Shown here in pieces: positions 42,820-55,747 of a stretch of 64,000 bases of DNA. The DNA comes from an uncultured Ectothiorhodospiraceae bacterium (GTDB lineage: Bacteria > Pseudomonadota > Gammaproteobacteria > UBA6429 > Thiohalophilaceae). The number at the start of each line of letters is the position of its first letter. The stretch's first letter is position 1. The notes beneath the pieces are model-generated. The model ran no database searches and was not told the origin of the DNA. It worked only from the letters and a program-made list of their open reading frames with translations. The translations under genes and the position numbers were made by a program. The stretch lies in contig CAMYOL010000029.1 in the NCBI GenBank assembly GCA_947260005.1, forward strand, positions 1,077-65,076. The letters are read 5' to 3'.

Positions 42820-43194
42820 TTAACCTTCGTTGTTCTGATCAGATTCAATTGCAGAATCAATCAACGCCGATAAATTTGTACCACGTTCTATTGATTCATC
42901 GTAGATAAACTTTAAATGTGGAATCGTTCTTAGCTTCATACGTTTGCCCAGTTCATGTTGCAAAAAACCGGCTGCATGCTGCAGAGCTTCAATAGATGCT
43001 TTTTTGTCTTGCTCTTCTTCGACAACAAGCGCCGTTACAAACACCTTGGCATGGGCAAAATCTTTCGTCACCTCAACCGCTGATACGGTAATCATACCGA
43101 CACGAGGATCATTTACTTCTTGCTGTATCAGGATAGCCAACTCACGCTGGAGCTGTTCAGAAACACGGCGGGTGCGTTCAAAGTCTTTTGGCAT
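42820..43194 (-). CDS. rbfA: Ribosome-binding factor A
   Basis: The 124-residue protein has the RbfA KH-like fold and signature text (RVSEQLQRELAILIQ, DPRVGMITVSAVEVTKDFAHAKVFV). It matures the 5' end of 16S rRNA. It sits between infB and truB. Confidence 0.96.
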   Translation of the reverse strand: MPKDFERTRRVSEQLQRELAILIQQEVNDPRVGMITVSAVEVTKDFAHAKVFVTALVVEEEQDKKASIEALQHAAGFLQHELGKRMKLRTIPHLKFIYDESIERGTNLSALIDSAIESDQNNEG

Positions 43195-43228: not shown

Positions 43229-45745
43229 TTAGAGCTTACGCTCAACTTGTACGCGCTCATAGACTTCTATTTGATCGCCCACTTTGACATCGTTGTAATT
43301 TTTGACGCCAATACCGCATTCCATGTTCTGTTTAACTTCATTGGCATCATCTTTAAAACGCCGTAAAGACTCTAACTCACCTTCGTAAATAACAATATTG
43401 TCGCGTAATACACGAATCGGGTTGTTTCGTTTAACCACACCATCAACCACCATGCAACCTGCAATACTGCCAAATTTTGGAGATCGGAATACGTCGCGGA
43501 CTTCAGCGAGACCAATAATCTCTTCTTTGAACTCTGGAGCCAACATACCCGTCATGGATTGTTTTATTTCATCAATCAATTCATAAATAATACTGTAGTA
43601 ATGCAGGTCAATAGCTTCTTCATCGATCATGCGTTTCGCAGAAGCCTCCGCACGCACATTAAAACCAATTATGATTGCATTAGATGCAACTGCTAAATTA
43701 GCATCGGATTCAGTTATGCCACCCACTGCGCTGGCTACGATATTGACCTTTACTTCATCAGTCGATAATTTCGTTAACGCATCTGCGATGGCTTCAACTG
43801 AACCTTGTACATCCGCTTTCAGGATGACATTTAGATTTTGCACATCGCCTTCGGACATCTTGGCGAACATATTTTCCAATTTAGCAGCTTGTTGACGTGC
43901 CAGCTTCACATCACGATGTTTTCCCTGGCGGAAGTTTGCAACCTCACGTGCCTTACGTTCATCTTGTACAACGGTCGCTTCATCACCCGCGGTTGGCACT
44001 CCAGACAAACCCAGAACCTCAACCGGTGTTGAAGGTCCAGCCTCGTCGATTGACTGGCCATGTTCATTAATCATCGCTCGCACCCGACCATATTCAAGAC
44101 CGGCTAAAAGCATGTCACCTTTCTTAAGCGTACCTCGTTGAACCAGGATCGAAGCAACGGTACCCCGCCCTTTATCAAGACGAGATTCGATGACGATACC
44201 GCGAGCAGCGCCCGTCGGTACGGCTTTTAATTCCATGACTTCAGTTGTTAACAGGATGGCTTCAAGCAATGCATCCACACCATCACCGGTATGCGCCGAT
44301 ACGTTTACAAAAATCGTATCACCACCCCAGTCTTCAGGTATGACATCTTCCTGGCCTAGTTCATTTTTAACCCGATCGGGATCCGCCTCAGGCTTATCCA
44401 TTTTATTGACCGCAATGATTAAAGGCACACCTGCCGCTTTAGAGTGTTGTATTGCTTCACGCGTCTGAGGCATAACACCATCATCCGCAGCAACCACTAA
44501 GACCACAACGTCGGTCACTTGTGCACCACGAGCACGCATCGCCGTGAAGGCTGCGTGTCCGGGCGTATCTAAAAAGGTAATATCGCCATTTTCGGTTTCA
44601 ACGTGATACGCACCAATATGTTGGGTAATACCGCCGGCTTCTCCAGAGGCAACACGACTTTTACGAATGTAATCAAGTAAAGAAGTTTTACCATGGTCAA
44701 CATGACCCATGATGGTAACAACGGGTGCACGTTCAACGGCTTCACCATCATCTTCACTATCTTCAATGATCGAATCTTCAAGAGCATCATCGTTAATCAC
44801 TTTTGCCGTATGACCAAACTCTTCTACAACAATTTGAGCCGTTTCTTGATCAAGTACCTGATTGATAGTAACCATTGAACCGAGGCCCATCATGACTTTA
44901 ATGACCTCAGCGGCTTTAATCGACATCTTCTGAGCAAGCTCAGCAACGGTAATGGTTTCAGGAAGTTCTACTTCATGAATAATAGGTGCAGTCGGTTTAG
45001 TAAAACCATGTTCTTCACTAGACTCACCTGTAGCGGCACGTCTGGATGGTTTTTTCTTCTTACGACGACCTGACATCTCAGCACTGACATGTAATTCTTT
45101 TCGACCATAGCGTGTTTTACGGTCTTTATCGTCGAAATCATCTTTCGTTTTCTTTTTCTTACGGCTGGTAGTCGTACGCGCTTCTTTTTCAGCCGTTGCC
45201 TGCTTTTTAGCTAATTCTTCCTCTGCCTTTTTCTTGGCTTCTTGTTCTTTGTTTTTTTCTTTTTCAGCATCCGCCTCAGCAAGTGCTTTTTTACGTGCTT
45301 CTTCTTCCGCTAACCGTTCGGCTTCTTTTTCTTCCAGGTTGCGCTTGGCCACTTCATCAATGGCTTCCTGTTTTGCTTTTTCTTCTTCGCGTTGAGCCTG
45401 CACTTCTTCCTGGCGTTTGGTTTCTTCTTCAACTATAACACTGCGTTTTATGTATGTACGTTTCTTACGTACCTCAACGTTAACCGATTTGGTTTTACCC
45501 TGAGAACCAGTAACTTTTAATTCAGAAGATGATTTACGCTTGAGCGTAATTTTTTTACCACCCTCGGCTTTATCAGAGTCCCCATGTTTACGGCGTAAGT
45601 GGCCGAGTAATTCCATTTTCTCATCGTCAGAGATCATTGCATCAGGATCAGCAATGGGCACACCTGCATCCTTCAGCTGCTCCATTAATCGATCGATGGA
45701 TACTCCAACGACTTCTGCAAATTGTTTTACGGTAACTTCAGCCAT
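43229..45745 (-). CDS. infB: Translation initiation factor IF-2
   Basis: The 838-residue protein has two short N-terminal IF2_N domains, a long charged Lys/Glu/Ala linker (about 60-240), the GTPase domain with G1 [13 protein letters not shown]3 DTPGHAAF and G4 NKMDKP, and C-terminal domains that bind fMet-tRNA. It positions initiator tRNA on the ribosome. The gene for initiator tRNA begins the same operon. Confidence 0.98.
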
Positions 45746-48143: not shown

Positions 48144-48154
48144 TGCAGATTGCA
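48144..48154. promoter_or_regulatory. TGCA-N3-TGCA inverted repeat upstream of soxY (putative enhancer site)
   Basis: TGCA-GAT-TGCA lies 67 bp upstream of the candidate sigma54 promoter of soxYZ. The same symmetrical pattern occurs upstream of the dsrE-like gene and twice upstream of the sensor kinase gene. Enhancer sites of sigma54 activators usually lie in this distance range. The factor is inferred. Confidence 0.45.
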
Positions 48155-48220
48155 GTGTCTAACTAAGCCGCTCTCCTGAACATTAGTATAAGTCAATGTT
48201 ATTTAATGATATTTATTGCA

Positions 48221-48236
48221 TGGTATAAGAATTGCA
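48221..48236 (+). promoter_or_regulatory. Candidate sigma54 (-24/-12) promoter of soxYZ
   Basis: TGGTATAAGAATTGCA has GG and GC ten bases apart and ends in TTGCA like the consensus. Predicted transcription start is about 48247, 54 bp before the soxY ATG. The rest of the 307 bp region (47994-48300) separates this operon from the divergent tRNA-fMet operon and holds that operon's promoter. Confidence 0.55.
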
Positions 48237-48300
48237 GTAATACTCATTACGGGAGAGAAATATAATTTTAGTCGAAACGAATTAACGAAGGAGCCGTTCG

Positions 48301-48771
48301 ATGAACCAGACTCGTAGAACTTTTTTACAAGCCAGTATGGCAGCCGGCACAGTTGCTATTGCAACCAGTGCAGGATTATTAAGTCCTCGCACAGTACTTG
48401 CTGCATGGCCTAAAAAGGCATTTGATGCCAGTAGTCTCGCTGATGCCGTGAAAGCGATTGCAGGCAGTGATAAAACCGTTAACAGTAAAGAAATCTCTGT
48501 GGAAGCACCTGATATTGCTGAAAACGGGGCAGTTGTCTCTGTTACTGTCAAAAGTAAGGCCGCTAACACGGAGCAAATCTCTGTCTTAGTACCTGAAAAC
48601 GCTAACCCATTATGCGCTAGTTATGTCACCACCGACGCCGTCGATGGTTTTGTTACTGGTCGTATTAAAATGCGTAAAACATCTGATGTCATTGCTGTAG
48701 TTAAAGCAAATGGCAAATTACTCACCGCAAAGAAACCCGTTAAGGTAACACTGGGTGGTTGTGGCGGTTAA
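48301..48771 (+). CDS. soxY: Sulfur-carrier protein SoxY
   Basis: The 156-residue protein begins with a twin-arginine signal (TRRTFLQ with a hydrophobic stretch ending near LAA-WP), sending a folded protein to the periplasm. The C-terminus is VTLGGCGG, the swinging arm whose Cys carries the sulfur substrate in thiosulfate oxidation. It is immediately followed by soxZ. No soxXA, soxB or soxCD is in the window. A strong AAGGAG site precedes the ATG. Confidence 0.96.
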   Translation: MNQTRRTFLQASMAAGTVAIATSAGLLSPRTVLAAWPKKAFDASSLADAVKAIAGSDKTVNSKEISVEAPDIAENGAVVSVTVKSKAANTEQISVLVPENANPLCASYVTTDAVDGFVTGRIKMRKTSDVIAVVKANGKLLTAKKPVKVTLGGCGG

Positions 48772-48804
48772 TGGACAGTAACGAGATTTAAGAGGTAATA
48801 GACC

Positions 48805-49122
48805 ATGGCAAAGAAGAAAATGAAAATACGTGCGTGGGCCGACAAAGGCAGCGCCACAGTAAAAGCAATCGTATTCCATCCAATGGAAACTGGATTGCGT
48901 AAAGATAAAGCAACAGGTAAAAAAATCCCTCCTCACTTCATTGAAGAATTAGCCGTAAAGCATAATGGCAAACAGGTTCTGACTTGCCTGTGGGGACCGG
49001 GCGTATCGAAAAACCCCTTCTTATCATTCCGACTAAAGAGTGCCAAGAAAGGCGATACACTTCAGCTAAGCTGGATTGATAATAAAGGTGGTAAGGATGT
49101 CGCTGAAGCGAAGGTTAAATAA
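48805..49122 (+). CDS. soxZ: Sulfur-carrier partner SoxZ
   Basis: The 105-residue protein matches SoxZ: IVFHPMETGLRKDKATGKKIPPHFIEELAV and a beta-sandwich pattern ending FRLKSAKKGDTLQLSW. It has no signal peptide and is expected to be exported with SoxY. It lies 33 bp after soxY with its own GAGG site and ends at a terminator. Confidence 0.96.
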   Translation: MAKKKMKIRAWADKGSATVKAIVFHPMETGLRKDKATGKKIPPHFIEELAVKHNGKQVLTCLWGPGVSKNPFLSFRLKSAKKGDTLQLSWIDNKGGKDVAEAKVK

Positions 49123-49160
49123 CCCTCGTACCCAATCTCTCGTTTTAGATGGACTAAAAA

Positions 49161-49187
49161 GGCGCATCACTTGATGCGCCTTTTTTT
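49161..49187 (+). terminator. Rho-independent terminator of soxYZ
   Basis: GGCGCATCA and TGATGCGCC form a perfect stem followed by a run of seven T, 38 bp after the soxZ stop. Confidence 0.9.
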
Positions 49188-49352
49188 ATTGAGGCCGCCA
49201 GTAATTCTGAGTAACTATCAGGTATAATTATCCGTAATTAAAACACAAACAAATTTAAGATATAAAAGTAAAATTTTTGAGATCCATTTTCCTAAATATG
49301 TAAATCAAGTAAAAACCCGTACATTTTTTTAGTTTTAAATATCATGATTGCC

Positions 49353-51338
49353 TCAACTATCCGATTTTGATTGATTTAAACACCAATCTTTCCACATATC
49401 GCGATAAGCCTTTTCAATATTATTTGTTAAGGATTCAGCATCCATCAAGGGAGACATCATCATGTTTTCTCTTAATTTTTTGCGAAGAACTGATAATTTA
49501 TCAGAGTCCCTAGCCAAATTTACCGCTATCCTGACATATTCTTCCTTTGACTGTGCTATATGTTCTTTCAAGCCCAAGTTTATCATTTGGCTCACACCTA
49601 CTCTTGAAACATGTGAATTACCTTCCAATACTATTACTGGCACCCCCATCCATAAGGCTTCGCACGTTGTGGTTGTTCCATTGTAAGGAAAGGTGTCTAA
49701 CGCTATATCAACCTGATTATATTTTGTCAGATGTTCAATTTGACTTACATCTCTCTCAATACATATTACTCTGGATGGATCAACGCCATATGTAGAGAAA
49801 TTATTACGAAGATCGTTTCTCACAGAAGATTCATGTAAGGCAGCAGTTTTTAGCAGCAGTTGTGAGTTTGGTAACTCGAGAAGTATTTGAGCCCAAACAT
49901 TAATTGAGTCAGGCGTGATCTTAGCGAGTTTGTTAAAGCAACCAAAAGTAAATACTTCTGAGTTGAAGGAAGGTGGAACCCCGACATCTGGTGAATTATC
50001 TGGGGGAGAAAAACATGAAAAACTACCAGGTAACCTAATCAGTCGTTCCGAGTAGTATTTTTCAGTTGTTCCGATTGGATCAGCATAAGCATCCGTAATT
50101 CGATAATCTATCGTAGATAGACCGGTCGTGTTTGGATAACCTATCCAACTAACCTGTATTGGCGCAGGCTTTCTGGCAAAAACCAACAGTCTACCGGCCG
50201 AAGTATGTCCCGATAAGTCAACCAGAATGTCTATTTGGTCTTTTTGTATTAATTCAGTTGCTTTGTCGTCACTCAGACTGTAAATATCGCGCCAATGATG
50301 ACAGTAATTTTTAATTTGCTCGGTTAATTTATCTTTTTCTTTATTATTGCAATAGCAATACACTTCGACTTGTTCAGGATTATGATGTTCTAATACAGGT
50401 GAAATGAAAAAAGCTACTGAGTGTTTTCTAAAATCCCCAGATACATATCCTATTTTAATCCTGCGCTCTTGTTCGGAATTGTTGTTATGAACAGGAATAA
50501 ACGGTACAAGAGGTTCAGCAAATTTCCTGGAATATTTCAGGTGTTCATTAAAAATATTTTCTGCCGTTCTCGTACCTGAGTAATTTAACGTTAAGAGTAT
50601 ATTGCTAAACGTGATTGCTTTATCAGAGCCCGAAGCCATATCCAATGCAAGATTAAATTGCTCACTTGCATCCTCGGGTCTTCCTAAATTATAAAGAGCA
50701 TTCCCTAGCTCCAATTGTGCGATATAAGTTGGTCGATTTAATAAAGATTTTTTATAGCATTTAATAGCATCTTCATAGTGTCCAAGATTCACTAAAGTCT
50801 GAGCTAAGTTAAATAGTGTTTCATAATTGTCAGGCTCTAATTGTGAGGCATACTTATAATGTATCTTCGCCTCTTCGTATTGATGATTATTGAAAAATAA
50901 TAATCCCAGATTAATATGAGCATCAACTAAATCCGGATGGATTTCCAATGCTTTTTGGTAATGTAATAATGCCTTTTGAGCATCTCCCTTATCTTGCATA
51001 GCTTTAGCCAGATTATATTGAAACTCTCCAGCATTTGGATCAATTAGTAGTGCTCGGGAAATAAGGTCAATTGCATTGTCGAGATCACCTGATTTATATG
51101 CAATTACACCTAAGAGATTCAATGCATTATCATTGTTAGGATCATGTTGTAGTACTTTATGATAAAGACTTCTCGCTTTTTCGATATCACCATCTATCTG
51201 TAGCTGAACTGCAGAGTTCAACAATTGGTCAACATTTGGAGAATCAGAGACTGCCTTGTTCTCTTTGCCACAACATTTTTTCAGTTTTTTACCGCTACCG
51301 CAAGGGCAAGGAGAGTTACGACCAATTTTTGTTACCAT
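49353..51338 (-). CDS. SEC-C motif / TPR / O-GlcNAc transferase-like (GT41) protein
   Basis: The 661-residue protein starts with a SEC-C zinc motif (SPCPCGSGKKLKKCC, residues 9-23). TPR repeats (about 33-245) of the usual 34-residue type follow. The C-terminal half is a GT41/SPINDLY-like glycosyltransferase: IGYVSGDFRKHSVAFF, VDLSGHTSAGRL, QVSWIGYPNTTG, and DTFPYNGTTTTCEALWMGVPVI. Relatives transfer N-acetylglucosamine or other sugars to proteins. SEC-C motifs normally bind ribosome or SecB-type partners. The substrate is unknown. It is convergent with soxYZ. Confidence 0.85.
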   Translation of the reverse strand: MVTKIGRNSPCPCGSGKKLKKCCGKENKAVSDSPNVDQLLNSAVQLQIDGDIEKARSLYHKVLQHDPNNDNALNLLGVIAYKSGDLDNAIDLISRALLIDPNAGEFQYNLAKAMQDKGDAQKALLHYQKALEIHPDLVDAHINLGLLFFNNHQYEEAKIHYKYASQLEPDNYETLFNLAQTLVNLGHYEDAIKCYKKSLLNRPTYIAQLELGNALYNLGRPEDASEQFNLALDMASGSDKAITFSNILLTLNYSGTRTAENIFNEHLKYSRKFAEPLVPFIPVHNNNSEQERRIKIGYVSGDFRKHSVAFFISPVLEHHNPEQVEVYCYCNNKEKDKLTEQIKNYCHHWRDIYSLSDDKATELIQKDQIDILVDLSGHTSAGRLLVFARKPAPIQVSWIGYPNTTGLSTIDYRITDAYADPIGTTEKYYSERLIRLPGSFSCFSPPDNSPDVGVPPSFNSEVFTFGCFNKLAKITPDSINVWAQILLELPNSQLLLKTAALHESSVRNDLRNNFSTYGVDPSRVICIERDVSQIEHLTKYNQVDIALDTFPYNGTTTTCEALWMGVPVIVLEGNSHVSRVGVSQMINLGLKEHIAQSKEEYVRIAVNLARDSDKLSVLRKKLRENMMMSPLMDAESLTNNIEKAYRDMWKDWCLNQSKSDS

Positions 51339-51540
51339 TGTAAGAACTCATAATAAAATAAATCAGCGAGATTTATCATACACAAATAATATTAACACAG
51401 AAAATTCAAGTTTTTTATTATTCATTCCAGCAGACAAGATTATATACCCTATCTATTTAATCAACTCTATAGTTTTTTTGAATAGATTATTTTAAAACAG
51501 TATTCTCAAAAAATAAAAAAACTTATGTCTAGTTTTAATA

Positions 51541-51569
51541 AAAAACGGGTGCCGAAGCACCCGTTTTTT
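51541..51569 (-). terminator. Rho-independent terminator of the dsrE-like gene
   Basis: ACGGGTGC and GCACCCGT pair around CGAA, flanked by A-rich and T-rich runs. It is 21 bp after the dsrE-like stop. The spacer 51339-51540 up to the glycosyltransferase start shows nothing else but AT-rich sequence. Confidence 0.85.
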
Positions 51570-51590
51570 AGATTAACAGTAAATCAAACC

Positions 51591-52061
51591 TTATGGTTTA
51601 ACGTAGTTGTAACCTTTTTGTTGCAAGTGAGCAACATGAGCAACGCCTGATGGAATTACTTCCGCGTTTTCATTGATTTTATCTTTAGGTATTTTTTTTC
51701 CGCGGATAGTGTTTGCACAGATTGTGAATTTAACACCACGGTTAGCTAAACCAGCGATTTGATCGTTGAAATTATAGACTTTACCTTTTTTGTTCTTTTT
51801 ACCCATTGAGCCGTCAACCATTGCGAAAGCACCAGAGCTATGAGTAACAACGATCACTTCAATGTTGGCATCACCCAATGCATTCAGGTGATTTTTAACA
51901 TTACGAAGTGCACCTTTAGCGGTGTGGATGTTGTTTACATGATAAACAACTTTTTGTTGGTTATAACCATTTTTTGCAGCTTTTGATGGATCAATAGCAT
52001 AAGCTGATGCGGTCATCGCAACACCTGCAGCAATTAACGCAGCTTTACTTAATAATTTCAT
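51591..52061 (-). CDS. Periplasmic DsrE/DsrF-like protein
   Basis: The 156-residue protein has a Sec signal (1-22, ending SAYA) and a DsrE-like alpha/beta fold: VVYHVNNIHTAKGALRNVKNHL, IEVIVVTHSSGAFAMV and GVKFTICANTIRG. The single mature Cys (C115) sits at the position of the conserved Cys of DsrE relatives. DsrE-type proteins handle persulfide sulfur; the secreted group is poorly understood. It starts at ATG 52061 behind AGGAGGA. A sigma54 promoter candidate and repeat lie upstream and a sigma54 regulator is the next gene. Confidence 0.85.
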   Translation of the reverse strand: MKLLSKAALIAAGVAMTASAYAIDPSKAAKNGYNQQKVVYHVNNIHTAKGALRNVKNHLNALGDANIEVIVVTHSSGAFAMVDGSMGKKNKKGKVYNFNDQIAGLANRGVKFTICANTIRGKKIPKDKINENAEVIPSGVAHVAHLQQKGYNYVKP

Positions 52062-52108
52062 TTTAACTCCTCCTAAGAATTAGGTATAAATGTTACATAA
52101 CAAAGTAC

Positions 52109-52120
52109 TACTCGCGAGTA
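52109..52120. promoter_or_regulatory. 12 bp palindrome in the dsrE-like leader
   Basis: TACTCGCGAGTA is its own reverse complement. It lies downstream of the predicted sigma54 start site (about 52126), so it is in the 5' untranslated region and may form a short hairpin or bind a repressor. Confidence 0.4.
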
Positions 52121-52137
52121 CTGTATACATAGATACA

Positions 52138-52152
52138 GCAAATGGCGTTCCA
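52138..52152 (-). promoter_or_regulatory. Candidate sigma54 (-24/-12) promoter of the dsrE-like gene
   Basis: On the minus strand TGGAACGCCATTTGC has GG and GC ten bases apart, matching TGGcACG-N4-TTGC at most fixed positions. It is the best sigma54 match in the window and lies beside a sigma54-activator gene. Predicted start is near 52126, 65 bp before the ATG. Confidence 0.6.
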
Positions 52153-52238
52153 AAGTCTAGGTTTTTTTTATCTAAAGATATTTCAATAACTTAGTTGATT
52201 TTAGCGAGCATATCAGTACTATCTAATATCATTTCGGG

Positions 52239-52249
52239 TGCATTATGCA
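52239..52249. promoter_or_regulatory. TGCA-N3-TGCA inverted repeat upstream of the dsrE-like promoter
   Basis: TGCA-TTA-TGCA lies 87 bp upstream of the -24 element of the dsrE-like gene, in the gap after the regulator's stop codon. It matches the repeats before soxY and the sensor kinase gene. Confidence 0.45.
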
Positions 52250-52276
52250 TCTTTTATAAGGTTTTAAGATGGTAAT

Positions 52277-53656
52277 TTACACCGTTTCTAAATCATTGTC
52301 ATAACGTCTTAACTTTCTCCACAGTGTTGTCTTATCAATACCTAACACTTTTGCTGCCTGGGTTTTTTTACCCCGACAACATTTCAAAACATGCTGGATG
52401 TATTCCTGTTCCAATTCTAATAATGATATAAAATCATTTTCAGAAAATGTAGCGGCAAGCAGGTCATCTTCACTAACAACCGGATTTGAATCTTCCCAGG
52501 TCAAGATTGGACTATCTGCGAGGATGACACAACGCTCTACCGTGTTTCTCAATTCACGAACATTACCTTTCCAGTCTGCCTCACACATACGCTGTAAAGA
52601 GGTGCTATCATAACCTTTCACACTACGTTGATAGCGCTCATTAAACTCTTTCAGATAATAATCGACCAATGCAGGAACATCCTCTCTACGTTCATTTAAG
52701 GAAGGCACACGGATGGTCACCACATTTAAGCGATGATAGAAATCATGGCGTAAATTTCCCTCCTCGACCATTTGCTCCAGATCCTGATTGCTTGCGGCAA
52801 CGACTCTGACATCCACTGGAATTGGAGTTATACCGCCCACCCTGATAATTCTTCGATCTTCGATCGCTCGCATCAATTTAATTTGCATCTTGTCGGAAAT
52901 ATTGCAAATTTCATCCAGAAACAAGGTTCCCCCATCAGCCTGTTCCATAAGCCCATATTTCCGCTGTGTTGCACCGGTAAAAGCACCTTTTTCATGCCCG
53001 AATAATTCACTTTCAAGTAAAGTATCGCTCAATGCACCACAATCAATAGCCACAAAGGGTTTGTCATTTCGCGGACTGAAATCATGTAACGCACGCGCGA
53101 CGAGTTCTTTACCGGTTCCGGATTCTCCAGTTAGAATGGCACTACAGCTTACTTCAGCTATTTTCTCAATCGTAGTGAACAGAGTTCGCATTACCGGCGT
53201 ATCACCGATCATACCGAAGCGATTACGTTTTTGACCAATTCGCCGTTTTAATAGTTTATTTTCAGTACGTAAGTGACGTGATTTAATCGTTCGTTCAAGC
53301 ATAATCCGTAGCTCTTCAAAATCGAACGGTTTTTTAATGAAATCATTTGCTCCGCGTTTCATTGCTTCTACGGCATTCTCTACAGAAGAATAGCCTGTCA
53401 TCACGACCACAGGAACATCTTGATCAACACTTCTAAGTTCACTCAATAATTCAAACCCGTTCATGCCCGGCATTCGTAAATCTGTTATGACAATATCAGC
53501 ACCATCTTTTTTGAACTCTTCCAGACATGCTGACGCATCCTGAAACACCGTACAATCATAATCCGCATTGTCGCAGTTTCGTTTCATGACTCGGCATGTT
53601 ACTGCATCATCATCTATAAACATTATACGAGTTGACTTATTTGATTTAGACGACAT
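52277..53656 (-). CDS. Sigma54-dependent response regulator (NtrC family)
   Basis: A protein of 459 residues from ATG 53656, overlapping the kinase gene end by 11 bp; an upstream start at 53704 would put extra residues inside the kinase gene. REC (about 9-125) has FIDDDAVT, the phospho-Asp in ITDLRMPGMNG and Lys in IKKPF. The AAA+ domain (about 145-365) has Walker A GESGTGKE, the sigma54 loop GAFTGA and Walker B GGTLFLDE. A Fis-type helix-turn-helix ends the protein (TQAAKVLGIDKTTLWRKLRRY). It is predicted to activate sigma54 promoters such as those before dsrE-like and soxY. Confidence 0.95.
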   Translation of the reverse strand: MSSKSNKSTRIMFIDDDAVTCRVMKRNCDNADYDCTVFQDASACLEEFKKDGADIVITDLRMPGMNGFELLSELRSVDQDVPVVVMTGYSSVENAVEAMKRGANDFIKKPFDFEELRIMLERTIKSRHLRTENKLLKRRIGQKRNRFGMIGDTPVMRTLFTTIEKIAEVSCSAILTGESGTGKELVARALHDFSPRNDKPFVAIDCGALSDTLLESELFGHEKGAFTGATQRKYGLMEQADGGTLFLDEICNISDKMQIKLMRAIEDRRIIRVGGITPIPVDVRVVAASNQDLEQMVEEGNLRHDFYHRLNVVTIRVPSLNERREDVPALVDYYLKEFNERYQRSVKGYDSTSLQRMCEADWKGNVRELRNTVERCVILADSPILTWEDSNPVVSEDDLLAATFSENDFISLLELEQEYIQHVLKCCRGKKTQAAKVLGIDKTTLWRKLRRYDNDLETV

Positions 53657-55610
53657 ATTTAGCCTCCATAATTTCGTCATCAGATTGATCATCCATTTCA
53701 GCATGAAAAGGCAAAAGAATTACAACACGCAGTCCTTCTCCCGGTGTATTTTCCAGATGTATTGTCCCACCATGATGTTTAACAATGCCATAACTCACTG
53801 ACAAACCCAGTCCAGTCCCTTCGCCTTCTTGTTTGGTCGTAAAAAAGGGATCGAATACTTTGGAAATTTCCTGGGTTTTAATTCCGGCCCCAGTATCGAT
53901 GATTTCAACTGCAATATAATCGATATCTTTATAGGATTTGATATGGATAGTGCCACCGGCAACAGAAGCCTGTACTGCATTTAAAATAATATTAACCAAT
54001 ACCTGCTGTATCTGATTCATATCAGCGACGAGAAATAAGTCATGTTGCAGATCCGTAACGACGGTAATTTCAGCCGATTCGATTCGATGTTGCAACAAAT
54101 CCAGGGTGTCTTCGATTAACTGACTCATATTGAATTCGTGATAGTCAGGTTTATTTTCTCTTGCAAAGCTTAAAATACCCTGCACAATCCGTGCGCAACG
54201 TTGACCTTCTTTTTTGAGGAGATTTAAATCATTCAACGCTTCTTCATTGTCTTTCACGCCTTCTTCAATTAGTGATGCGAGAGACATGATATTCATAAGT
54301 GGGTTATTAATTTCATGGCCAATACCCGCCGCTAACTGCCCAACAGAAGCAAGTCGTTCGGATTGTCGTGCCAGTTTTTCAGCTTTATCTCTTTCGCGTT
54401 TGGCTTTAACTAAACTGGCCGTTAAATAATTAAACGCTTTACCTGCAACCCCTATTTCATCATTGCGAGTATCGTTAGAACGAGATGAGTGGTCACCATC
54501 CGCATAACGGGTAATCGCTTCCGCCAGATCATGTACAGGTTGCGACATACGCCATGCCGCCCATACAGATATTAATAAACTAATTACCAGCAGAACACCC
54601 AGCAATAACCAGATTGACTTGCGCAGGCTGTCTATTGAAGCAAAGACGGTTTTACTATCTGCTTCAACTAATAACAACCAGGAAGTATTCGGTCTTGATT
54701 CAAAGGGTGATAGATTTTTAAAAAATAGCATACGGCCATCATTTCGAAACAGTGAACCTTTTTCCCGATTTTGTTTTATATACTGCCACTCTTCTTTAGA
54801 GATCTCATTCGTAAAACGATATTGAGACTCTAGCTGGTTACCAAAACGTTTGGAAATATCGTGGTGGTATAAATAGATTCCATCACGTACTGTCCCTTCA
54901 TTAATTTCAACGACAAAGGCATTTCCTGGATACCCACCTAAAGCAGATTTAATCGTTGAATCAAGTCGAGTCCCCCACATGTTTACAACCAACAGACCTT
55001 CTTCTCGATCGAGTTCATCTTTTACCGTCGCAGAATAACGCACCATTGCCGGACAAAAATCGGCATCATGCGTCACGCGACCTAACTCAAAATCGGACAT
55101 CACGACATCTTGATCGATACCTAAGGTGTATTTAAAAAAAGATTTATTGGACTGATCGGCAACGTAGAGTCGTTTAAATTTGTCATCGATTAACTTTGGC
55201 TCAATTGGTTTTCCTTCTTTGACCTTAACCAGGGTTCTGCCCTGTGGATCAATAAACCGCAAGGCCTGAATACTCGGTACCACATGTGAATAGTTTAAAA
55301 AAAACAGTTCCAGGTCTTCGGCGAGACGCTGGTAATCAGCCGGATTCATCACTTTACCAGATTGTTTTTGGGTAAAGGAGGCAAACTGCCTTACCGCCGG
55401 CACATGAGCGAGACCTCTGGCGATGGCTTTCTGATTATTTAGAATCAGCTTAATCTCGTCAGACATTTTGTTCAGAGTGACATGCAGTTCTTTTTCCGTC
55501 TGAACACGTAACTCAGATTCAGCACGATCAACAACACCAAACAGAAGGATGAGCAACGGAACCGCTGTCATTAGACTTAGAATTAGAAAGAATTTATGGC
55601 GCAGTTGCAT
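53646..55610 (-). CDS. Membrane sensor histidine kinase with dCache-like periplasmic domain
   Basis: The 654-residue protein has a first membrane helix (about 8-27), a large periplasmic domain (about 30-325) of double-Cache type, a second helix (about 330-352), HAMP (about 353-405), a HisKA box with GIGHEINNPLMNIMSLA, and HATPase motifs (NIILNAVQAS, DTGAGI, EGTGLGLSVSYGIVKHHGG). It is the cognate kinase of the overlapping regulator. The ligand is unknown. Context suggests a sulfur compound, but that is inference. Confidence 0.93.
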   Translation of the reverse strand: MQLRHKFFLILSLMTAVPLLILLFGVVDRAESELRVQTEKELHVTLNKMSDEIKLILNNQKAIARGLAHVPAVRQFASFTQKQSGKVMNPADYQRLAEDLELFFLNYSHVVPSIQALRFIDPQGRTLVKVKEGKPIEPKLIDDKFKRLYVADQSNKSFFKYTLGIDQDVVMSDFELGRVTHDADFCPAMVRYSATVKDELDREEGLLVVNMWGTRLDSTIKSALGGYPGNAFVVEINEGTVRDGIYLYHHDISKRFGNQLESQYRFTNEISKEEWQYIKQNREKGSLFRNDGRMLFFKNLSPFESRPNTSWLLLVEADSKTVFASIDSLRKSIWLLLGVLLVISLLISVWAAWRMSQPVHDLAEAITRYADGDHSSRSNDTRNDEIGVAGKAFNYLTASLVKAKRERDKAEKLARQSERLASVGQLAAGIGHEINNPLMNIMSLASLIEEGVKDNEEALNDLNLLKKEGQRCARIVQGILSFARENKPDYHEFNMSQLIEDTLDLLQHRIESAEITVVTDLQHDLFLVADMNQIQQVLVNIILNAVQASVAGGTIHIKSYKDIDYIAVEIIDTGAGIKTQEISKVFDPFFTTKQEGEGTGLGLSVSYGIVKHHGGTIHLENTPGEGLRVVILLPFHAEMDDQSDDEIMEAKYVV

Positions 55611-55632
55611 ATCGGTAAATTGCTATTTTCTC

Positions 55633-55643
55633 TGCATTTTGCA
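55633..55643. promoter_or_regulatory. TGCA-TTT-TGCA inverted repeat just before the sensor kinase
   Basis: A perfect TGCA-N3-TGCA repeat 23 bp upstream of the kinase start. With the copy at 55737 it brackets the likely promoter of the kinase-regulator operon and suggests autoregulation. No clear -24/-12 element was seen here. Confidence 0.4.
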
Positions 55644-55736
55644 TAAGTATAGCAAGATATAACTCAATACAACAAAATAAACTTACTTTTTCAGGGTTAT
55701 ATATTAGAGAACTCTAATGCGGCATGCAGTTTTTAG

Positions 55737-55747
55737 TGCATTTTGCA
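55737..55747. promoter_or_regulatory. Second TGCA-TTT-TGCA repeat upstream of the sensor kinase
   Basis: Identical to the copy at 55633 in all 11 bases. It lies just after the stop of the DUF2818-like gene and 127 bp before the kinase start. Confidence 0.4.

Follow-up and report, generated by a model that had tools for sequence, protein, structure and literature searches.

Sigma-54 control of sulfur oxidation genes by a two-component system is known from Acidithiobacillus caldus, where TspS/TspR controls the adjacent sox genes (PMC6335251, PMC12194929), and how sulfur oxidisers sense inorganic sulfur compounds has been called little known (PMC10451225). Here we analysed a stretch of 64,000 nucleotides (the window) from an uncultured Ectothiorhodospiraceae bacterium (GCA_947260005.1, contig CAMYOL010000029.1, positions 1,077 to 65,076), in which soxYZ lie near a minus-strand group of genes encoding, in this order, a sensor kinase, an NtrC-family response regulator and a DsrE-like protein. 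Like TspS/TspR as described (PMC6335251, PMC12194929), this would be a sigma-54 two-component system beside sox genes with an upstream site. A reading of the letters alone (the sequence-only reading) had proposed that soxY, dsrE and the kinase-regulator operon form a sigma-54 regulon marked by the repeat TGCA-N3-TGCA. We report that the promoters of soxY and dsrE are conserved in relatives, that they very probably answer to the adjacent regulator, and that the regulon has probably left sigma-54 in at least two lineages.

soxY and dsrE share a conserved two-part promoter

Both soxY and dsrE are preceded by a GG-N10-GC element with TTGC at -12, as in sigma-54 promoters, and by a TGCA-N3-TGCA site further upstream (Table 1). 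These two elements, already pointed out by the sequence-only reading, are the only ones in the window with a -24/-12 score of at least 20. The sites that it had placed above them are real as well, although the gaps between site and element are 66 bp at soxY and 86 bp at dsrE, not 67 and 87.

The TGCA motif alone was rejected as evidence, being too common. The window holds 6 copies against 1.87 expected (sd 1.37), which is weak evidence because 2 of 100 shuffles also reach 6, in line with the earlier caution that the motif by itself is not decisive. Two of these copies are intragenic, at 42973 in rbfA and at 43453 in infB, where a single chance copy, that in rbfA, had been reported. Across the 3.7-Mb genome of the window (G000; the other G-numbers are related genomes, and L-numbers are loci), the motif occurs 59 times, compared to 21 for the reversed control.

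We then considered site and promoter together. A strict combined pattern (TGCA-N3-TGCA, 56-86 bp, TGGNAYN5TTGCW) has 2 matches in G000, exactly the soxY and dsrE promoters. A looser pattern has 4, namely soxY, dsrE and an orphan soxY reached through two tandem sites, and finds some match in 28 of 58 genomes, 18 of them at a soxY or dsrE promoter (as read from the list) and the others scattered. Reversed, neither the strict nor the looser pattern matches anywhere across the 58 genomes. Among the 50 of the 59 TGCA sites of G000 that were inspected (44 outside the window and 6 in it), a -24/-12 score of at least 19.4 was found nearby only for soxY, dsrE, the orphan soxY and a fliD-like gene. The last carries a strong element, TGGCATTGGAATTGCA (G000:C29:197200-198500, L240); it was rejected as a target, as we read this as an ordinary flagellar promoter and the TGCA site, inside a flaG-like gene, looks like a chance occurrence (names given by eye).

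We searched 58 related genomes for homologous regulator, soxY and dsrE genes and read the cassette in those fetched; the named collection comprises 61 dsrE-like loci, including those of Thiohalophilus thiocyanatoxydans DSM 16326 (L170) and of a Sulfuriflexus metagenome-assembled genome (L208). Kinase, regulator, dsrE and soxYZ are syntenic in relatives, and the kinase-regulator-dsrE trio is more widespread, with soxYZ beside it in only part of the loci. In relatives, both site and -24/-12 element are kept ahead of soxY and of dsrE, separated by 63-66 bp in the case of soxY and, for dsrE, mostly by 84-90 bp (extremes 73 and 109). A failure of close relatives to conserve both elements, which the sequence-only reading had named as a refuting outcome, was therefore not observed. 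A chance origin of these motifs could appeal to the mild over-representation of TGCA-N3-TGCA alone in the window, but it is refuted by conservation, since a near-fixed spacing recurs in dozens of loci, and the failure of the reversed combined pattern to match anything points the same way; we regard it as practically negligible.

An element resembling a binding site of integration host factor (IHF) also recurs in constant orientation between site and promoter, at an offset of 43-48 in 17 of 38 dsrE promoters whose regulator has not lost its loop (see below) and at 33-35 in 17 of 23 soxY promoters; these were counted by eye in groups that also take in G055a and a few rows whose regulator is unclassified, and the related genomes are not independent. 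The best scores exceed those of shuffled sequences moderately (7.8 versus 7.0 and 7.4 versus 6.6).

The -24/-12 elements and the GAFTGA loop are lost together

As the sequence-only reading had noted, the window regulator has a GAFTGA loop, through which proteins of this type contact sigma-54, and a Fis-type DNA-binding end; Walker A is also present, loop and Walker A being features of NtrC-family group 1. Among its orthologs, however, the loop reads NAFSGA in one group and GVNDAT in another, is deleted in G030 and reads GALPGA in the distant G055b. All these loop-lost regulators keep the receiver aspartate, the GK of Walker A and the helix-turn-helix (HTH).

The state of the promoters follows that of the loop. 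With a GAFTGA or GSFTGA regulator, dsrE has a -24/-12 element in 37 of 41 cases and an exact TGCA site in 36 of 41, while with a loop-lost regulator the element is found in 0/8 and the site in 8/8. Results were the same at soxY, where GAFTGA-type regulators go with the element in 22 of 23 cases and with the exact site in 21 of 23, and loop-lost ones with the element in none of 6 and with the site in all 6. These counts require no set distance between -24/-12 and TGCA site, and leave out L185 (loop outside the contig), the dsrE of L177 (43 bp of upstream sequence; treated as genome G030, from contig number and identities) and the soxY of G055a (a paralog, set aside by hand).

Sigma-54 itself did not vanish from these bacteria. 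The rpoN gene is present in 7/7 family genomes with a lost loop (G015, where it is partial, G016, G026, G030, G031, G034 and G036), a paralogous sox regulator keeps GAFTGA in all seven, and the soxY of this paralogous system keeps GG-N10-GC and TGCA-N3-TGCA in the five with enough sequence. As rpoN and the paralog's loop and -24/-12 remain, it is the regulon that would have left sigma-54. This joint loss of loop and -24/-12 next to an intact paralogous sox system is why we conclude that the adjacent regulator very probably drives the soxY and dsrE promoters, and why the proposed sigma-54 regulon is supported.

Several observations pull the other way. L183, L203, L205 and L208 have an intact loop and no -24/-12 at dsrE, so the match is imperfect in that direction. 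The losses are also few in number. A regulator tree, built with the loop columns included, requires 6 changes of promoter state as against 3 of loop state. Two losses are possible, because uniting both loop-lost groups of the family, whose clades may reflect one event, was not rejected by the approximately unbiased (AU) test (p-AU 0.44), and the distant G055b is a long branch. A sign test on independent pairs of loop and promoter had 2-3 pairs to work with, which puts significance out of reach. As for IHF, the element ahead of the window soxY is weak (7/9), and half of the loop-lost soxY promoters (3 of 6) retain a match at 33-35, so the idea that the IHF element disappeared in loop-lost lineages was not borne out.

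Among the loci just named, L183 (G008) has an intact GSFTGA and decayed -24/-12 elements at both dsrE (TGGACTATTTATTGTT) and soxY (TAGTATGGGAATTGAC). It looks freshly decayed and may represent an early step out of sigma-54 control, with the promoters going first.

We also weighed whether the loop-lost regulator is simply decaying rather than re-employed with another sigma factor. In the regulator tree, the stems of both loop-lost clades are long (0.84 and 1.27), and no replacement promoter could be named, the TTTACA boxes seen by eye being candidates that we do not claim. On the other hand, species of two genera have preserved the binding sites, the sensor cysteine of the kinase and, in the regulator, the receiver aspartate, the GK of Walker A and the HTH, which makes mere decay unlikely, and the regulator of these lineages has more probably been shifted to a mode without sigma-54.

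The paralogous sox kinase-regulator system

A second kinase-regulator pair lies at G000:C74 (L042, L315) near another soxY, its regulator being 48% identical to that of the window. The pair is also present in G010, G014, G019, G028 and others, with its own -24/-12-like element. In principle, the sites of the window could belong to this system, the adjacent regulator controlling something else, given that the paralogous regulator also adjoins a soxY and that the core TGCA-N3-TGCA is common to both. However, 10 of 14 paralog sites (by our own reading) have the longer form TC[GA]TGCA-N3-TGCA[CT]GA, which none of the 111 sites at the soxY, dsrE and kinase starts of the window-type regulon has, and -24/-12 is missing where the window-type regulator has lost its loop although the paralog is intact. 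Assignment of the sites to the paralog is very unlikely in view of these differences, and we assign them to the adjacent regulator.

Elsewhere the paralogous system is less tidy, with TTGG for TTGC at -12 in G010, G028 and G032 and neither element in G009. Some contigs end inside the soxY of the paralog, as if near-identical copies had broken the assembly.

The orphan soxY of G000 (G000:C7:423767-424391; L219 1468-2095) has two tandem TGCA-N3-TGCA sites together with TGGCACAGAGTCTGCA; tandem sites also occur in G001 and G002, and one exact site in G007. We demoted it as a target of the window regulator, because one of its two sites bears the paralog-type extension, and it is probably a target of the paralogous regulator.

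Sites at the kinase-regulator operon and at soxB

The two identical TGCA copies seen ahead of the kinase-regulator operon are indeed there, and the operon had been counted in the sigma-54 regulon on this basis. It carries the site, but a sigma-54 promoter was rejected, as only scattered GG-N10-GC matches were found far upstream and none at a conserved place (the best is TGGTATTTGCTTTGCC at -203 in G017; the best of the window is poor, at -413). The site lies 28-36 bp before the start codon, measured from its upstream end, in 38 of the 45 loci with upstream sequence. Two bases above it stands TATACT or TATAAT, clear in the window and its close relatives and weak in many others. An operator just below the -10 usually represses. 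Considering that the window site is just below a sigma-70-like -10, autoregulation is likelier than sigma-54 activation, and the site probably mediates autorepression.

In 11 related genomes the two sites of the kinase operon are 72-105 bp apart and show some helical phasing, a hint of a DNA loop. This phasing is not claimed: the Rayleigh test gave p ~0.005 for 10.5 bp and 0.03 for 10 bp, on these 11 related genomes, with three periods tried and post hoc.

A further likely target is soxB. G000 has two soxB genes above the family cut-off, and a TGCA-N3-TGCA site stands above one of them, outside the window (G000:C7:78178-78188, L326). The other three genomes of the genus have it too, as does G004, and in total it is found in 11 of the 17 genomes with the system (G000-G004, G011, G014, G016, G017, G019 and G021), placed 190-260 bp above the soxB profile start; this count leaves out G005, which gave no match to soxB, and G015, whose available sequence was too short. 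Chance would give ~0.01 sites per 700 bp at the genome-wide density. Where no regulator ortholog was found, the site is in 0/4 genomes (G012, G013, G018 and G020, drafts that are 84-97% complete). No strong -24/-12 was found on the gene strand above soxB; as the site stands there without one, the regulator would act at soxB without sigma-54. In G000, a sigma-70-like TTTAAA-17-CATAAT (by eye) lies ~100 bp below the site. Weakening the case for soxB, there is no exact site in 6 of the 17 genomes (G006-G010 and G022), none at the other soxB copy of G000, G002 and G003 (0/3), and none at two soxA genes of G000, one of which has 521 bp of upstream sequence only.

The sites at the kinase operon and soxB might activate sigma-70 polymerase instead of repressing it. 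The position of the window kinase-operon site, just below the -10, argues against this. Distance from site to sigma-70-like promoter at the soxB of G000 speaks for activation, and loop-less NtrC-type regulators are described as acting at sigma-70 promoters (PMC10274813). Activation at these sites thus deserves attention even if we think it rather unlikely, and we keep to autorepression for the operon.

Locus layout, kinase sensor and DsrE-like protein

Table 1. Coordinates, strands and basis of the features of the window discussed in the text.
Feature	Position	Strand	Basis
TGCA-N3-TGCA site of soxYZ, TGCAGATTGCA, proposed regulator-binding upstream activating sequence	48144..48154	+	sequence, conservation
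-24/-12 (sigma-54) element of soxYZ, TGGTATAAGAATTGCA	48221..48236	+	sequence, promoter score
soxY	48301..48771	+	Pfam PF13501, E 6.8e-28
soxZ	48805..49122	+	Pfam PF08770, E 9.4e-35
dsrE-like gene	51591..52061	-	Pfam PF02635, E 7.3e-11, plus alignments and predicted fold
-24/-12 (sigma-54) element of dsrE, TGGAACGCCATTTGCT	52137..52152	-	sequence, promoter score
IHF-like element (8/9 consensus positions) between site and dsrE promoter	52181..52193	.	consensus match
TGCA-N3-TGCA site of dsrE, TGCATAATGCA	52239..52249	-	in gap after regulator gene
NtrC-family response regulator (receiver, AAA+, Fis-type HTH)	52277..53704	-	Pfam (PF00072 receiver, PF00158 Sigma54_activat, PF02954 HTH_8) and orthologs
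GAFTGA codons, AAA+ L1 loop (sigma-54 contact)	52970..52987	-	sequence
Sensor histidine kinase: predicted periplasmic double-CACHE, HAMP, HisKA, HATPase_c	53646..55610	-	Pfam and predicted fold
Cys186 codon, only cysteine of kinase sensor part (motif DFCPAMVRYS)	55053..55055	-	alignment
Proximal TGCA-N3-TGCA site of kinase operon, TGCATTTTGCA, 22 bp above kinase start codon	55633..55643	-	proximal site in 38/45 loci
Sigma-70-like -10 (TATACT), two bases above proximal site	55646..55651	-	sequence
Distal TGCA-N3-TGCA site of kinase operon, TGCATTTTGCA, 104 bp above proximal one	55737..55747	-	sequence

The start codon of the regulator may sit some codons further inside the annotated open reading frame, as many ortholog matches start at residue 5-25. 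Between soxZ and dsrE lies a tetratricopeptide repeat (TPR)/glycosyltransferase-41 gene (49353-51338), which looks like an insertion, because the gap is ~1.1 kb or less in relatives sharing the gene order. In several loci the trio is found between nuo genes and rimP-nusA-infB (gene names by eye). Loci with the trio and no soxYZ match in the available stretch are L190, L191, L192, L196, L198, L201, L202, L205-L208 and L212; in L190, L207 and L212 it stands ahead of rimP-nusA-infB, again by eye, and in L190 and L212 nuo genes precede it.

The sensor part of the kinase is predicted as a double-CACHE fold (mean predicted local distance difference test, pLDDT, 88.8), with vpHK1S-Z8 and other dCACHE sensors as best PDB matches. 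Of 48 kinases of the window type, loop-lost lineages included, 47 have Cys186, and its position has no cysteine in 11/11 paralogous kinases, where the alignment is loose. The sole kinase without it is that of L205, whose dsrE is also without both promoter elements.

The DsrE-like protein (mean pLDDT 90.3, with high confidence beyond the first 20 residues) has a predicted fold resembling YchN and DsrE-family structures. Its Cys115 is invariant in 34 sequences, and it shows the features of the DsrE/DsrF family. The product is probably exported, considering that its N-terminus, read by eye, is signal-peptide-like. Some DsrE proteins of the loci without soxYZ look like lipoproteins.

Proposed mechanism

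Taken together, the data suggest the following scheme. The signal sensed by the kinase would be periplasmic and most likely a reduced sulfur compound, perhaps read through the single cysteine of the sensor, and the kinase would phosphorylate the regulator, as adjacency and domains suggest. The regulator would bind TGCA-N3-TGCA, in agreement with the conservation of the sites. At soxYZ and dsrE it would be a sulfur-responsive enhancer-binding protein that sits mostly 63-90 bp above -24/-12, with an IHF-induced bend perhaps assisting and with the GAFTGA loop driving sigma-54 polymerase, a step to which the joint loss lends support. At its own operon, the site by the sigma-70-like -10 would probably serve autorepression, and at soxB the regulator would act without sigma-54. 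Later, probably in two or more lineages, the promoters gave up sigma-54 and the loop was altered or deleted, with the binding sites persisting. We consider this scheme as a whole, from the kinase and the sites to the later exit from sigma-54, highly probable, although it is built from genome comparison.

A bolder version would be that the regulator works in two modes, with sigma-54 at soxYZ and dsrE and with sigma-70 at its own operon and soxB, that this duality enabled several lineages to abandon sigma-54 entirely, both loop and -24/-12 elements going and the binding sites remaining, and that the single periplasmic cysteine senses sulfane sulfur directly. We offer it tentatively, as a proposal that could well fail.

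The analysis turns what was a guess about two sites into a regulon with defined parts, testable in a cultured relative, and proposes a periplasmic cysteine as sensor of a sulfur signal. It also amounts to a natural experiment in the departure of a regulon from sigma-54: regulator, sites and genes are the same, the sigma-54 machinery is there or not, and the genomes retain rpoN and a sister sox system bearing -24/-12.

Comparison with known systems

The sequence-only reading held such a regulon to be undescribed. No published account of the window-type regulon was found among the matches listed, in which subscription journals are thinly covered, but sigma-54 two-component control of sox is known from TspS/TspR. 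Compared by description, the two differ in the binding site, which is TGTCCCAAATGGGACA for TspR (PMC6335251) and TGCA-N3-TGCA here; the target of TspR is the adjoining sox-II cluster, and the parts of its description compared here mention neither a dsrE partner nor loop-lost relatives.

Adjacency is what our locus has in common with Thiohalomonadales symbionts of lucinids, in which soxYZ, a sigma-54 regulator and a histidine kinase are neighbours (PMC11237559); the portion of that account considered here mentions no binding site, dsrE or promoter. In Thioalkalivibrio thiocyanoxidans, a sigma-54 regulator and a kinase stand beside sulfur-compound genes in the thiocyanate-dehydrogenase cluster, and that system differs by a GAF-domain kinase and by its thiocyanate genes (PMC5744179).

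LuxO/VanO of vibrios are also sigma-54 NtrC-family proteins, and the LuxO box TTGCA-N3-TGCAA has a common core with our sites (PMC3352281). The outer T/A pair of that box is not conserved at window-type sites, and LuxO is not the best-scoring solved structure for the window regulator. In addition, LuxO has qrr small RNA targets and receives its input through a phosphotransferase relay (PMC3352281), whereas the kinase beside the window regulator is of the ordinary membrane type.

Finally, the GAFTGA-less NtrC of Caulobacter and Rhodobacter capsulatus, which is described at sigma-70 promoters (PMC10274813), resembles the loop-lost orthologs. The window regulator differs in having the loop, which is missing only in those orthologs, and the loss can be traced here inside one orthologous regulon, with -24/-12 gone and the sites kept. 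In conclusion, both loop-less regulators and the control of sox genes by sigma-54 have precedents; what is new is the window-type regulon and its rewiring.

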